DNA of 35,711 nt from Betaproteobacteria bacterium. GTDB taxonomy: Bacteria > Pseudomonadota > Gammaproteobacteria > Burkholderiales > Rhodocyclaceae. Positions 12,437 through 22,939 of the stretch are shown here, piece by piece. Under the pieces are notes generated by a model. That model did no database searches and was not told the origin of the DNA. It was given only the letters and a program-made list of their open reading frames with translations. The stretch spans positions 1-35,711 of the forward strand of contig WQYV01000017.1 of the NCBI GenBank assembly GCA_009781085.1, given 5' to 3'. Each line of letters starts with the position of its first letter. Positions within the stretch are counted from its first letter, which is position 1. Position numbers and translations under genes: made by a program.

Positions 12437-12465
12437 TTGACAACCGCATTCAACGTGCGTAAAAC
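12437..12465 (+). promoter_or_regulatory. Sigma70-like promoter for the mgtC-mgtA leader
   Basis: TTGACA (12437-12442), 17-nt spacer, TAAAAC (12460-12465). Predicted start about 12472, directly before the M-box-like core. Confidence 0.55.
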
Positions 12466-12471
12466 GCCTCA

Positions 12472-12640
12472 CGCTAACTGTTTCGGTAAATGAAGCTACT
12501 TACAGAGATACAGGTTGCTGCCGCGGGATCGTGGAAACATGACGAGCAGGTCAACAGCCCCTGTCGAAATCAAGGCATGGAATAACGCAATTTCATCGAC
12601 CTGTAAAGCTGAAGCTTGAACGATGGCGAGGAGATGCCGA
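12472..12640 (+). ncRNA. M-box (ykoK)-like Mg2+ riboswitch aptamer
   Basis: Manual match to the M-box core: TGAAGCTACTTACAGAGATACAGGTTGCTGCC...GACGAGCAGGTCAACAG...CTGTAAAGCTGAAGCTTGAACGA against canonical GAGGCUCCU..GAGAUAC..UGCUGCC..GGGUCAACAG..CAUACAGUGCUAAAGCUC. P2-like TTACAG(12500-12505)/CTGTAA(12601-12606). Confidence 0.75.
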
Positions 12641-12664
12641 GGAGGCGTTCTTTGTGAAAACTCC

Positions 12665-12712
12665 CCCCTGTCTGTCGCCGCTTGATACGTTGGCAGGGGA
12701 TTTTTGTTTTTC
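12665..12712 (+). terminator. Intrinsic terminator 1 (M-box expression platform)
   Basis: CCCCTGTC(12665-12672)...GGCAGGGG(12692-12699) stem, followed by ATTTTTGTTTTT. Confidence 0.7.
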
Positions 12713-12724
12713 AGGAGTGATTGC

Positions 12725-12847
12725 ATGGATCCAGACAGTAGTCATAGACACAGATCAAACGATGGCCTTCCTAGGAATGTGTCTGTTTGCAAAGATACTT
12801 GGCAGCCCCGCACTCAGGCATTCCACCTGAAAATCTGCGCCCGCTGA
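12725..12847 (+). CDS. Putative 40-aa regulatory leader peptide upstream of mgtC (MgtL-like in concept)
   Basis: AGGAG SD 7-8 nt before ATG at 12725; MDPDSSHRHRSNDGLPRNVSVCKDTWQPRTQAFHLKICAR*. Lies between two terminators. Confidence 0.6.
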   Translation: MDPDSSHRHRSNDGLPRNVSVCKDTWQPRTQAFHLKICAR

Positions 12848-12875
12848 CCAGCGGGTTTGCAGCCAACTCATCATG

Positions 12876-12907
12876 CCACCGTTTGAGTTTCAAACGGTGG
12901 TTTTTTT
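12876..12907 (+). terminator. Intrinsic terminator 2 directly before mgtC
   Basis: CCACCGTTTGA-GTT-TCAAACGGTGG, a perfect 11-bp stem, followed by TTTTTTT; 20 nt before the mgtC ATG. Confidence 0.92.
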
Positions 12908-12927
12908 ATGGAAAGGAGTTGGGGAGC

Positions 12928-13608
12928 ATGACCTTATTCGATTTTGTCGTCCGCATCTGCTGTGCGGTTGCATTCGGCTTCCTGATTGGCTTGGAGCGCC
13001 AGCTTACGGGAAATATCGCGGGTATCCGCACAAATATTCTGGTAAGCATGGGTGCATGCCTGTTTACCTTGTTTTCGCAGTTGATGGGCGCACCCGATAC
13101 CACCCGTATTGCAGCTCAAGTTGTCACTGGCATAGGTTTTTTATGCAGTGGTATTATATTCAAGGAAAGGCTTAACGTCAGGGGTTTGAATACAGCTGCC
13201 ACCATATGGTGTACCGCCGCAATTGGCGTACTGTGCAGTAGCGGGTTGCTTCTTTACGCAACCGCTGCCGTCGTTATCTTGCTTGTGAGCAATATAATTT
13301 TTCGTTTTATTGCCAATAAAATTCAGCCGCTGGAGCACTTTGAGGATGAGGAGAATACTTATGTTTTATCCGTATCGTGCTGCGATGAAAATGAATTTGA
13401 AGTTCGTGCCGCGATTATAAGCAGCCTGGGCAATATCCGGCGCTTACATCTGATTAATCTGCAAAGTGCGGACGATATTGCTGGAAAAGTAGAAATAGCG
13501 GCTACCGTCCAGGTAAGCGGTAGGCGGAAGGATGAATATATCGAAAAATTAACGGCACAAATTGCGTTGGAAAAAGGCATAACCAGGGCAGGATGGAAGT
13601 TACCCTAA
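12928..13608 (+). CDS. mgtC: MgtC/SapB family Mg2+-related membrane protein with C-terminal ACT-like domain
   Basis: GFLIGLERQLTGNIAGIRTNILVSMGACLFTLFSQ...GIGFLCSGIIFKERLNVRGLNTAATIWCTAAIGVLCSSG. GGAG SD then ATG at 12928. Confidence 0.93.
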   Translation: MTLFDFVVRICCAVAFGFLIGLERQLTGNIAGIRTNILVSMGACLFTLFSQLMGAPDTTRIAAQVVTGIGFLCSGIIFKERLNVRGLNTAATIWCTAAIGVLCSSGLLLYATAAVVILLVSNIIFRFIANKIQPLEHFEDEENTYVLSVSCCDENEFEVRAAIISSLGNIRRLHLINLQSADDIAGKVEIAATVQVSGRRKDEYIEKLTAQIALEKGITRAGWKLP

Positions 13609-13632
13609 CGCACGAAATGAAGGAACAGACAA

Positions 13633-16350
13633 ATGAACAAAGTAAAAAACAGAACGATGGTAGCAAAAAAAACACTCGAAGAAATGGTTCACCGCGACGA
13701 AGCGCGCAATAGAGTAAAATTTGCTGCCTCCAGTGAAACTGAAAAACTATTCAGTAAACTGGGAACAAGCATTGAGGGTTTGAACGAAACCCTTGTGGAG
13801 GATTCCCGCAACAAATACGGTAGCAACAATGTTACACGCGGTAAAAAGGCATCGCTGCCGAAGCGCATCGCAGCAGCTTTTATCAATCCCTTTACCGCTA
13901 TCCTGTTCGGATTGGTGTTGGTATCTGTTTTCACGGATATTATTTTGGCAAAACCTGAAGAAATCAATCCGATGAACGTTATCATCATCATAACGATGGT
14001 GCTTGTTTCAGGTATTTTGCGGTTTATACAGGAAACAAGAAGCGGCCAAGCTGCCGAAAATCTGCTGAAAATGATAACGACTACTACCAATGCGAGACGA
14101 CAAGAAACAGGGAATCAGGAAATCCCGCTAGAAGATATTGTCGTAGGTGATATTGTGCATCTTGCGGCTGGAGATATGATTCCTGCTGATATGCGAATCA
14201 TCTATGCTAAAGATTTGTTTATTAGCCAATCGGCGCTAACTGGAGAGAGTGAACCGGTAGAAAAAATTTCTAGCGTTGTAAAGAACAACGATAGCTTGAT
14301 TGAAATCCCCAATCTCGCATTTATGGGTTCCAACGTCATCAGCGGCAGCGCAACAGGTGTTGTAGTAACCACTGGAGATGACACGATTTTTGGTGAAATG
14401 GCGAAAAACATCAGCGCCAAACCTGTGCAAACCAGCTTTGAAAAGGGCGTGAACACCGTTTCATGGTTGCTGATACGTTTCATGCTAGTGATGGTTCCCA
14501 TCGTTTTGTTTGTCAACGGGTTCACCAAAGGCGATTGGGTAGAGGCCACATTGTTTGCCTTATCGGTGGCCGTAGGGCTCACACCCGAAATGCTCCCAAT
14601 GATTGTCACCACCTGCCTTGCTAAGGGTGCGGTGGCTATGTCGCAACAAAAAACCATCATCAAGAACTTGAACTCAATACAAAATCTTGGCTCGATGGAT
14701 ATTCTATGCACTGACAAAACAGGAACGCTGACGCAGGATAGAGTGGTTTTGCTTTACCACCTCAATATTCACGGGCAGGAGGATACCCGTGTGCTGCGCC
14801 ACGCTTTCCTGAACAGCTACTATCAGACCGGGTTAAAAAACCTAATGGACGTTGCCATTATACAAAAAACGCAGGATGAACAAGATAACACTCCCGAACT
14901 GCGTGGACTTGCAAATAAATTCATCAAAGTGGACGAAATACCGTTTGATTTTGACCGTCGCCGTATGAGTGTTGTGGTTGCAAACGGTAAAACGCAAATG
15001 ATTACAAAAGGTGCAGTTGAGGAAATGCTTTCGGTTTGCAGTTTTGCTGAATATGAGGGAAAGGTAGAACCGCTAACTGACGACATCCGGGCGTATATCT
15101 TAAAAAAAGTTGACGATCTAAACGAGGACGGTATGCGCGTCATTGCCGTGGCGCAAAAACACGATCCACCACCCGTGGGTGCTTTTTCTGTGGCCGATGA
15201 AACGGACATGGTGCTTATGGGTTACCTAGCATTCCTTGACCCACCGAAGGAATCCACCGCCGGTGCTATTAGGGCTCTGCAAGAGTTCGGCGTGGGCGTG
15301 AAAATCCTGACCGGCGACAATGACAAGGTAACGCGTTGCGTCTGCCGCCAGGTAGGCCTCCCCGTTAACCGCATTTTGCTCGGTTCAGATGTGGATACCA
15401 TGGCCGATGTAGAGTTGGGTAAGGCCGCAGAAGAAGTGAGTGTGTTCGCCAAACTTTCACCGCAACAAAAAGCAAGGGTAATCAAAGCCTTACGGTACAA
15501 CGGCCATAGCGTCGGTTATATGGGAGATGGGATCAACGACGCGGCTGCGATGAAGGCTTCTGACGTGGGTATATCGGTGGACACCGCAGTGGACATCGCA
15601 AAAGAATCCGCTGACGTTATCCTGCTGGAAAAAAACTTGATGGTGTTGGAACGGGGTCTCATAGAAGGGCGCAAAACCTATGCTAACATGATTAAGTATA
15701 TCAAAATGACAGCCAGCTCCAATTTCGGCAATATGTTTTCAGTACTAGCAGCAAGCGCTTTTCTACCATTTATACCGATGTTGCCGATTCAAATCATCCT
15801 ACTTAATCTGATTTATGATCTTTCCTGCACGGCAATTCCTTGGGATAACGTAGACAAGGAATTTCTCGCCAAACCGAAAAAATGGGACTCTTCTTCTATT
15901 GGTAAATTTATGTTATGGATTGGTCCTACAAGCTCTGTATTTGACATCACAACCTATCTACTGATGTATTTTGTCATTTGTCCTGCCATGTGTGGTGGTA
16001 TGTTGTTTCATGAACTGACCAATCCGACAATGAAAGCCTATTATATTGCCGTTTTCCATGCTGGATGGTTTGTGGAATCCATGTGGACCCAAACGCTTGT
16101 TATCCATATGCTCCGCACGCCGAAAATACCGTTTGTGCAAAGCCGTGCATCCGCATCGCTTACCCTGTTCACAATAACCGGAATTATGGCTTTAACGGCT
16201 ATCCCCTTTACGTGGCTTGGTAAGTTAATTGAACTTGCCCCCTTGCCGTTTGAGTTTTTCCCATGGCTAGCGCTGACAGTTTTTTTGTACATGGTGCTAG
16301 TGACGGCATTCAAGAGAGTTTTTGTCAGAAGATATGGGGAACTATTGTAG
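13633..16350 (+). CDS. mgtA: Magnesium-translocating P-type ATPase (MgtA/MgtB type)
   Basis: [99 protein letters not shown]. Confidence 0.97.
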
Positions 16351-20825: not shown

Positions 20826-22514
20826 TCATGCGGCAGTGGTACGCACGCTGTCAGACCCCGAAATCAAACGTCTAGCAACCTGCATCATCTTCCAGGTACG
20901 GAACCCACCGTTCAGGCTGCGCACCGACCATCCCTGCTGCTGTAACTGGCGTTGCCCGATATAACCGCGCAACCCAATTTGGCAGTACACGATCAATGCC
21001 GCATCTTTTGGAAACGCTGCCTGTGTACGCAATTGTGGCAGCGGCAGATTCTTTGCCCCGGGAATTTGACCCTGCTGCAATTCTTCGGGCTGACGAAGAT
21101 CGATCAAGGTTGCCCCAGCCAATATCGCGGCATCCAGTTCTTCTGGTTCGATGAGCGAAGAAAGCCCAGTAACGAGGTTCTGCGCTGCCATCCCCGCAAT
21201 GTTGATTGGGTCTTTGGCTGACCCATAGGGCGGCGCGTAGCTCAATTCCATCTCAGCCAAGTCATCGACCGTCATTTTCGCCTGAATAGCCGTTGCCAGC
21301 ACATCGAGCCGTTTATCCACACCGCTTTCTCCGATGGCCTGTGCACCGAGTATGCGCCCCGTGTCTTCAGCAAATAGCAGTTTGATGCTGATTTGTTTTG
21401 CACCGGGATAATAACCAGCATGGTCATTGGCATGGATATATACCTTGCGATACGGTATATCTGAGGCTTTGAGCGCTTTCTCGTTCAAACCTGTCGTTCC
21501 TGCTGTCATCTCGAACAATTTGCAGATGGCCGTTCCCTGTGATCCCCGATACGCCGCCTTCTTGCCAAAAATGACATCGGCCGCAATCCGTCCCTGCCGG
21601 TTGGCCGGCCCCGCCAAAGGCAGGATAACGGGATGGCCGTTGACAACATGGCTAACCTGTACGGCATCGCCTACTGCATAAATAGCTGGATCGGATGTCT
21701 GTTGCTGCACGTTGACGGCAATTGCACCTCCAACGCCCAATGCCAGCCCGGCATCCAAAGCCAGCTTGTTTTCCGGGCGAACCCCTATCGCCAGGATCAC
21801 CAAGTCGGTTTCAATCTGAGCGCCGGAGGACAACATTACCTGCAACTGCGGACCCGGCACGATTGCCGCCAGGCCATCCCCAATGTGCAATTTCACCTGT
21901 TGCCTTTGCAGCGTTTCAAGCAAAGGAGCGGTCATTTCAGCGTCCAGCGGTGTCAGAACTTGTGGGTCGCGTTCGACCAATGTAACTTCCAGCCCCCTAT
22001 TCCGCAGTGCTTCAATCATCTCCAGACCGATGAAACCGGCACCGACGACGCACACCCGGCGCACATGTGCATCAAGAGCCGCCATCATTCGATCCATATC
22101 GGGAATATTGCGCAATGTCAGTACCCGCGGGTCGTCGATACCCGGTAACGGCGGGCGTATCGGCGCCGCACCGGGGGAAAGGATCAACGTATCGTAGTGT
22201 TCAACGTATTCCCGCTCAGCACAAAGATCCCGTACCGCCACCGTTTTCGCCTTGCAGTCGATCGCTATGACCTCATGCCGTGTACGCACGTCGATATTGA
22301 ACCGGGCGCGCAGGGAATCCGGCGTATGCACCAGCAACGCATTACGGTTCTCGATTTCGCCTCCAATATGGTAAGGCAGGCCACAGTTGGCAAAAGACAC
22401 ATAAGAGCCGCGTTCCAATATGACGATTTCGGCGGTTTCACTTAATCGCCTTGCCCGTGCCGCAGCCGATGCGCCACCGGCCACGCCGCCTATAATTATC
22501 AGTTTTTTGGGCAT
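20826..22514 (-). CDS. FAD-dependent CoA-disulfide reductase-like protein with C-terminal rhodanese domain
   Basis: MPKKLIIIGGVAGGASAAARARRLSETAEIVILERGSYVSFANCGLPYHIGGEI; C-terminal IDLRQPEELQQGQIPGAKNLPL...YCQIGLRGYIGQRQL. Confidence 0.93.
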   Translation of the reverse strand: MPKKLIIIGGVAGGASAAARARRLSETAEIVILERGSYVSFANCGLPYHIGGEIENRNALLVHTPDSLRARFNIDVRTRHEVIAIDCKAKTVAVRDLCAEREYVEHYDTLILSPGAAPIRPPLPGIDDPRVLTLRNIPDMDRMMAALDAHVRRVCVVGAGFIGLEMIEALRNRGLEVTLVERDPQVLTPLDAEMTAPLLETLQRQQVKLHIGDGLAAIVPGPQLQVMLSSGAQIETDLVILAIGVRPENKLALDAGLALGVGGAIAVNVQQQTSDPAIYAVGDAVQVSHVVNGHPVILPLAGPANRQGRIAADVIFGKKAAYRGSQGTAICKLFEMTAGTTGLNEKALKASDIPYRKVYIHANDHAGYYPGAKQISIKLLFAEDTGRILGAQAIGESGVDKRLDVLATAIQAKMTVDDLAEMELSYAPPYGSAKDPINIAGMAAQNLVTGLSSLIEPEELDAAILAGATLIDLRQPEELQQGQIPGAKNLPLPQLRTQAAFPKDAALIVYCQIGLRGYIGQRQLQQQGWSVRSLNGGFRTWKMMQVARRLISGSDSVRTTAA

Positions 22515-22531
22515 TACCTTGTCTCCTTTGA

Positions 22532-22939
22532 TCATTTTTGGATGAAGCGAAGTAGTTGCATGCCAGCCAGCATCGAAACAACAAAGACGATTGCCTGCGG
22601 GATTCCCATTGACAGCGTGACCAACGATGGACCGGGGCAGACGCCAGCCAATCCCCAGCCAATGCCAAACAGTGCGCTGCCAATGACTAATTTGCGGTCG
22701 ATCGCGGTCGCTTCAGGCAATCGCATTGGCAGTCTCAACAACGAATGCGGCTGACGTTTTGCGATGGCAAACCCAACAACCCCAACGGCAATAGCTCCCA
22801 CCATGACCATTGCCAAAGAAGGGTCCCAATGCCCGGCCAAATCCAGGAATCCCAAAACCTTGACGGGGTTAGCCATTCCAGAAAGAAGCAAACCGATACC
22901 GAAAATCACGCCTGCCAGGGCTGCGGTAAAAAATGGCAT
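22532..22939 (-). CDS. YeeE/YedE-family membrane protein, half 2
   Basis: GIGLLLSGMANPVKVLGFLDLAGHWDPSLAMVMVGAI...LVIGSALFGIGWGLAGVCPGPSLV. Confidence 0.92.
   Translation of the reverse strand: MPFFTAALAGVIFGIGLLLSGMANPVKVLGFLDLAGHWDPSLAMVMVGAIAVGVVGFAIAKRQPHSLLRLPMRLPEATAIDRKLVIGSALFGIGWGLAGVCPGPSLVTLSMGIPQAIVFVVSMLAGMQLLRFIQK

Follow-up and report, generated by a model that had tools for sequence, protein, structure and literature searches.

The leader of the mgtC-mgtA genes in the window (the whole stretch of DNA analyzed here, 35,711 nucleotides) is probably a two-stage Mg2+-responsive device, in which an M-box riboswitch and the terminator that belongs to it are followed by a leader-peptide attenuator of the MgtL type. 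The elements are arranged in the order M-box, terminator 1 (T1), leader open reading frame (ORF), terminator 2 (T2) and mgtC-mgtA. The ORF is almost certainly a translated regulatory leader; it begins with an N-terminal motif common to M-box leaders across phyla, and its pairing with T2 is conserved.

All elements of the leader lie on the forward strand. A promoter-like sequence, TTGACA-N17-TAAAAC (12437-12465), is found upstream, with only 4 of 6 matches in its -10 element and no counterpart in the output of a promoter scan. The M-box (ykoK) Mg2+ riboswitch aptamer (RF00380) occupies positions 12475-12635 and matches its model over the full length (cmscan, model positions 1-169) at 77.8 bits against a gathering threshold of 44. 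T1 (12665-12711) consists of a stem-loop at 12665-12699 (CCCCTGTC...GGCAGGGG) followed by ATTTTTGTTTTT, with a folding energy of -16.2 kcal/mol (-14.7 in a second computation); because the M-box lies directly upstream, T1 belongs to the riboswitch as its expression platform. The Shine-Dalgarno sequence AGGAG (12713-12717) stands 7 nt 5' of the ATG at 12725, which opens a leader ORF of 40 codons, MDPDSSHRHRSNDGLPRNVSVCKDTWQPRTQAFHLKICAR (MDPDSSHRHR...), ending with TGA (12725-12847). Both sequence and fold reveal a hairpin within the ORF, PA (12744-12786), formed by ATAGACACA (12744-12752) and TGTGTCTGT (12778-12786) through nine pairs, one of them G-U. Its loop holds the antiterminator segment (AT), TCAAACGATGG (12755-12765), which corresponds to ORF nucleotides 31-41 in codons 11-14. 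The leader stop codon is contained in a further hairpin, CCCGCT-GACC-AGCGGG (12840-12855). T2 (12876-12907) is built from CCACCGTTTGA (12876-12886), a GTT loop, TCAAACGGTGG (12890-12900) and a T7 tract, has 11 perfect pairs and a folding energy of -15.9 kcal/mol, and is the sole site reported by a terminator scan. Downstream follow mgtC (12928-13608; MgtC/SapB family, PF02308 2e-36 and PF21770 1.6e-13) and a gene for a Mg2+ P-type ATPase of the mgtA/mgtB type (13633-16350; TIGR01524, 1132 bits against a cutoff of 611). A preliminary description of this DNA had proposed the ORF with its AGGAG between two terminators, the perfect 11-bp stem, GTT loop and T7 tract of T2, the hairpin around the antiterminator segment and the hairpin around the stop codon, and each of these is present base for base.

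That description had read the leader as an ORF plus attenuator in front of mgtC and had overlooked the M-box just 5' of T1. The ORF and its pairing are retained in homologous leaders and this part of the reading stands, whereas the primary Mg2+ sensor of the leader is the predicted M-box riboswitch, with the ORF and attenuator as a second stage. Aptamer sequence and structure, a terminator directly downstream and Mg2+ homeostasis genes beyond it are all found at this locus, as is standard for members of RF00380. From B. subtilis ykoK onward, the M-box has been known as a Mg2+ sensor complete in itself.

The M-box at the mgtC leader is the only one in the genome, and a search of 60 relatives, including 21 of the same genus, returned none. 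The whole M-box/mgtC/mgtA cassette (12475-16350) is missing from all 21 genus-mates searched, and none of the genus-mates searched yielded a match to the MgtC of the window. In a single contig scan of the genome collection, the best MgtC matches were to a Defluviitaleaceae MAG (70%), a Fibrimonadaceae MAG (52%) and Pectinatus (49%). The G+C content of mgtC and mgtA is 46%, compared with 55-57% in the flanks. Thus, the absence from relatives, the low G+C content and the distant best matches suggest that the cassette was likely acquired by horizontal transfer.

The distribution of similar ORFs behind other M-boxes is revealing of the nature of the leader ORF. M-box loci were gathered by covariance search from the classes of Pectinatus and the Defluviitaleaceae MAG, the orders of Peptostreptococcus and Hoyosella, and plasmid records; after removal of duplicates and of the upstream members of tandem M-boxes, 179 non-redundant loci remained (Negativicutes, Clostridia and Actinomycetota), and the survey also took in plasmids of Bacilli and Fusobacteriota. 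Most of the genes downstream serve Mg2+ transport; their products include MgtE, CorA, Nramp-type and P-type ATPase proteins and MgtC, with a few others besides. Small ORFs, picked by Shine-Dalgarno strength alone and blind to sequence, were present at 122 loci (98 unique leaders) and absent at 57. Residue 2 is acidic in 61% of the 98 unique leaders; the corresponding figure is 15% for the genes downstream and 5% for control ORFs with a Shine-Dalgarno sequence elsewhere in the same DNA. The start M-[DE]-x-[DEGS]-[PSG] is shared by 45 of the 98 leaders, whereas background genes show it in 3 of 882 cases (odds ratio 249, p 2e-46); this pattern was defined after the leaders had been viewed and the p value, uncorrected for phylogeny, is indicative, the residue-2 comparison being independent of the pattern. 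Typical starts are MDSGP, MDDGP, MDTDP, MDCDP, MDASP, MDAGS and MDPES, and both MDPDS of the window and MEPDP of enterobacterial MgtL conform to the pattern. ORFs with this motif stand behind M-boxes in genomes of Negativicutes and Clostridia, with a related start in Mycobacteriales, and plasmid leaders include those of Bacillus velezensis (MDSPHSSMSEE), Alicyclobacillus (MDSGPSHQ), Clostridium estertheticum (MESNPDLY) and Cetobacterium (MEGDVQSS). The comparison of leaders that the preliminary description had called for thus shows that most of the surveyed M-box leaders contain an acidic-start ORF, and membership of the window ORF in this conserved, M-box-linked family is close to certain. 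M-box leaders devoid of an ORF also occur, as in Peptostreptococcus (L006), at the Enterococcus FtsW loci and at some mgtE loci (leaders of 40-130 nt). Upstream of mgtC homologues that lack an M-box in three order-level relatives, no acidic-start ORF was seen.

Conservation in these ORFs is confined to residues 1-5, and their length ranges from 9 to 80 aa. The residues D2, S3, G4 and P5 are each encoded by several synonymous codons (for D, GAT 54 and GAC 30; for G, all four; for P, CCT, CCC and CCG), which argues for selection on the peptide at codons 2-5. Across 18 groups of near relatives, substitutions in the ORF bodies are spread evenly over the three codon positions (110/114/118), with 200 nonsynonymous and 55 synonymous codons. 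A drifting body beside a retained start is what marks a leader peptide whose function lies in its start, rather than a protein. The ORF matched no family in Pfam or NCBIfam and its body is free of coding constraint, so classification as a protein family was rejected. Two acidic residues within residues 2-6 are found in only 30 of the 98 unique leaders, so that intrinsic ribosome destabilization (IRD) driven by charge alone would not explain starts such as MDSGP; this simple form was given up and the claim loosened to an acidic start plus G, S or P. Serine codons at positions 5-7 in the survey are AGT with few exceptions (32 of 36 at codon 6) and those at position 3 mostly TCN, possibly reflecting RNA pairing.

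The second line of evidence concerns the pairing between the ORF and T2. The preliminary description had reported that 12755-12765 is complementary to the T2 5' arm (12876-12886) at 10 of 11 positions and had put the chance of such a match at about 1 in 1000; the complementarity is exact as described, and the estimate is fair, given that a 10/11 match to the T2 3' arm arose in 0 of 2000 dinucleotide shuffles within the ORF region and in 2 of 2000 anywhere in the leader. The AT duplex has an energy of -11.2 kcal/mol, a value that about 4% of shuffles also reach (energy-only p 0.04 in the window, or 0.30 when the whole downstream region is the reference). Since the energy-only p value is weak, the argument rests on the identity test and on the conservation of position. 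Nascent RNA ending at 12889 adopts the antiterminator helix; full-length RNA at equilibrium always folds T2 (-15.9 vs -11.2 kcal/mol for the AT duplex), so the antiterminator must win kinetically. For the same reason, equilibrium folding was rejected as proof of a switch, the minimum free energy structure of the full-length RNA always showing T2. Separately, the 3' end of the M-box, TTGAACGATGG (12617-12627), resembles AT and could itself pair with the T2 5' arm.

Three M-box/mgtC leaders carry a terminator 2, namely those of the window, Pectinatus (L004/L106) and Megasphaera (L005/L103). In all three, the T2 5' arm is best matched at ORF nucleotides 30-42, within codons 10-14, and the pairing segments (ATCAAACGATGGC, GGACTGGGGAAAT and TCAGATTCGTGGAA) are unrelated in sequence. 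The pairing is reached by 4% of shuffles for the window, 0.5% for Pectinatus (0.03% with a longer arm) and 0.8% for Megasphaera, and the chance that three pairing positions agree within 1 nt is ~0.0006; these values apply to arm ends set by eye, and a Megasphaera arm shortened to 8 nt matches elsewhere. Cognate and swapped pairings of codons 4-18 with the downstream leader were also compared in 22 mgtA/mgtC-type leaders, giving a mean residual of -7.2 kcal/mol in favor of cognate pairs (8.5 SD, 0 of 20000 permutations), with the window among the weaker members of the energy matrix (ranks 6 and 16 of 22). In 66 other leaders the excess of cognate pairing is weaker, still significant (p 5e-5). 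Thus, the pairing covaries among leaders, and the question of whether homologous leaders keep the ORF and the alternative pairing, on which the preliminary description had made its reading depend, is answered in the affirmative, the other two mgtC leaders having their partner at codons 10-14 in different sequences. Action of codons 10-14 on T2 in the window is therefore likely. Most other leaders (before mgtE, corA and others) lack a clear terminator 2, and in 45 of 88 leaders the ORF stop falls within -60 to +20 of the gene start, which indicates that the read-out differs there. A universal terminator 2 was accordingly dropped from the proposal and T2 is claimed for mgtC leaders only; counts from an automatic terminator finder, which accepts long weak stems, were excluded as evidence.

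These features suggest how the two stages may operate. At low Mg2+, the M-box would let RNA polymerase past T1, and a ribosome translating the ORF would pause on, or drop off, the acidic start M-D-P-D. From the established size of the ribosome footprint, we infer that a ribosome stalled at codons 2-5 would protect the RNA to about nucleotide 27, masking the 5' strand of PA (nucleotides 20-28) and leaving AT (nucleotides 31-41) free. The free AT could then pair with the T2 5' arm, and RNA polymerase would transcribe mgtC-mgtA. At adequate Mg2+, T1 would stop most transcripts; in those that escape, the ribosome would read through, PA would re-form behind it, AT would be hidden and T2 would terminate. 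We infer that the ORF is translated, that ribosomes pause or drop off on it in response to Mg2+ and that the switch runs in this direction. If drop-off were complete, the RNA left free could fold into PA and favor T2, so that pausing fits this leader better than drop-off. The role of Mg2+ at the acidic start is drawn by analogy with MgtL, and we lean modestly toward it.

Several alternative explanations bear on these inferences. Translation of the ORF might serve coupling only, by keeping Rho off or by feeding ribosomes to the next gene, with the acidic start chosen for initiation strength or RNA shape. In favor of coupling, roughly every second leader not of the mgtA/mgtC type has its ORF stop near the gene start (the 45 of 88 mentioned above), and the AGT codons at positions 5-7 look RNA-driven; however, residues 2-5 stay the same while their codons change synonymously, and the motif matches that of MgtL, whose acidic residues constitute the sensor (PMC11282234), making coupling as the sole function unlikely. 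The ORF could also be a classical or proline-type attenuator placed after the M-box, sensing tRNA charging or EF-P activity (Pro, Ser, Asp) in place of Mg2+. The mgtC and mgtA leaders of Salmonella do respond to proline limitation (PMC3641672), Pro is common at codon 5 and the near-invariant AGT serine codons would agree with such a role, yet the window ORF has no single-codon run and, in its early part, only Pro3 and Pro16; many leaders have no Pro at all, the constant feature is the acidic residue 2, and the controlled genes serve mostly Mg2+ transport. Sensing of this kind is distinctly unlikely.

An origin of the 10/11 match by coincidence, or as a relic of M-box sequence, would leave T2 as an ordinary back-up terminator. 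The similarity of AT to the M-box tail and the modest energy p value of 0.04 in the window are in keeping with this, but Pectinatus and Megasphaera have their partner at the same codons in unrelated sequence and the pairing covaries across the class, so that an ordinary back-up terminator appears improbable. It is very improbable that the ORF specifies a small protein with a function of its own, for instance a membrane or regulatory peptide of the MgtR kind, which lies in the leader by chance: the Shine-Dalgarno sequence is strong and a role of this type has been proposed for mycobacterial Rv1805A (D'Halluin et al. 2026, PMC12810186), but only residues 1-5 are kept, the body drifts free of coding constraint over lengths that vary from 9 to 80 aa, and neither Pfam nor NCBIfam contains a match.

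M-box riboswitches and MgtL are each already known, and the window leader appears to be MgtL-like in its working, not by homology or terminator type. In MgtL, the EPDP motif causes ribosome drop-off at low Mg2+ and thereby switches mgtA on, an effect abolished by mutations of E2 and D4 (PMC11282234). The two share a short ORF in a Mg2+ transport leader with acidic and Pro residues at positions 2-5, and the choice between RNA structures that is tied to ribosome progress in MgtL (PMC11282234) is the same choice proposed for the window. They differ in that the enterobacterial leader has no M-box, a Rho-dependent read-out and a PhoPQ context, whereas the window has the intrinsic terminator T2 and a riboswitch upstream; moreover, there is no homology beyond about five residues and no family match for the window ORF. 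Relative to described M-box models (e.g. PMC4072509), which stop at one terminator and have no leader ORF, the aptamer, T1 and the Mg2+ gene context of the window are standard. The Salmonella mgtCBR leader, with MgtM and MgtP, likewise stacks two controls before mgtC (PMC3641672); there, however, both are ORFs, sensing ATP and proline, the stem-loops are unlike intrinsic terminators and no riboswitch is involved (PMC3641672).

The one related case described behind an M-box is the mycobacterial M-box uORF2/Rv1805A, in the literature searched here, a conserved and expressed small ORF between the M-box and the operon that was called mycobacteria-specific and Rho-dependent, its role being left open (D'Halluin et al. 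2026, PMC12810186). The mycobacterial loci surveyed here recover an ORF of this type (MSPSDSPYP..., with an invariant Pro7); its start is MSPxDSP, not M-[DE], residue 7 of the window ORF is His, and no antiterminator is described for Rv1805A (PMC12810186). The mycobacterial uORF is possibly one branch of a wider pattern. A literature search, with sparse coverage of subscription journals, found no case from Bacillota or Fusobacteriota in which an M-box is combined with an acidic leader peptide; the only M-box uORF described there is the mycobacterial one. It is an evenly balanced proposition that the M-box in many lineages (Negativicutes, Clostridia, some Bacilli, Fusobacteriota and Actinomycetota, with Proteobacteria added by transfer) is only the opening half of a two-stage device. 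The other half would sense Mg2+ through a nascent peptide that starts M-[DE]-x-[DEGS]-[PSG]; it would be convergent with MgtL and would read ribosome stability rather than free Mg2+. If so, a well-studied riboswitch class would have an overlooked translational sensor in most surveyed loci, and the same five-residue ribosome-sensitive start would occur in unrelated leaders of enterobacteria and Gram-positives. The acidic nascent chain as a general Mg2+ sensor would then be testable in the mgtE leader of the B. subtilis group and in many M-box leaders, and the conserved, unexplained mycobacterial M-box uORFs would gain a possible function.

Some surveyed loci have unusual targets or arrangements. 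In the Defluviitaleaceae MAG, an M-box and the leader MDSDGKCRSS (L002:6954-7134) precede a gene of the uppP/bacA undecaprenyl pyrophosphatase family, and on plasmids of Enterococcus gilvus and E. raffinosus (L290, L295) an M-box lies directly before a gene of the FtsW/RodA/SpoVE family, where no acidic leader ORF was apparent. An M-box with MDTDG- or MDDGP-type leaders precedes related membrane proteins at L130, L121, L132 and L134 (and at L101, which has no Pfam hit); the L130 protein belongs to the ABC-type permeases (BPD_transp_1) and is a candidate for a Mg2+-responsive transporter of a kind seldom counted among M-box targets. Tandem M-boxes about 130 nt apart stand before one gene at G142:C23:1515-1993 and G127:C1:4541392-4541872 and in G094, G106, G074 and G115. 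Elsewhere in the window, the Rfam family V_AS7 (RF02819, a Vibrio antisense RNA) has a match outside Vibrio at 22321-22489 on the forward strand (105.9 bits), antisense to an oxidoreductase ORF on the reverse strand (20826-22535), and the family probably tracks conserved coding sequence.
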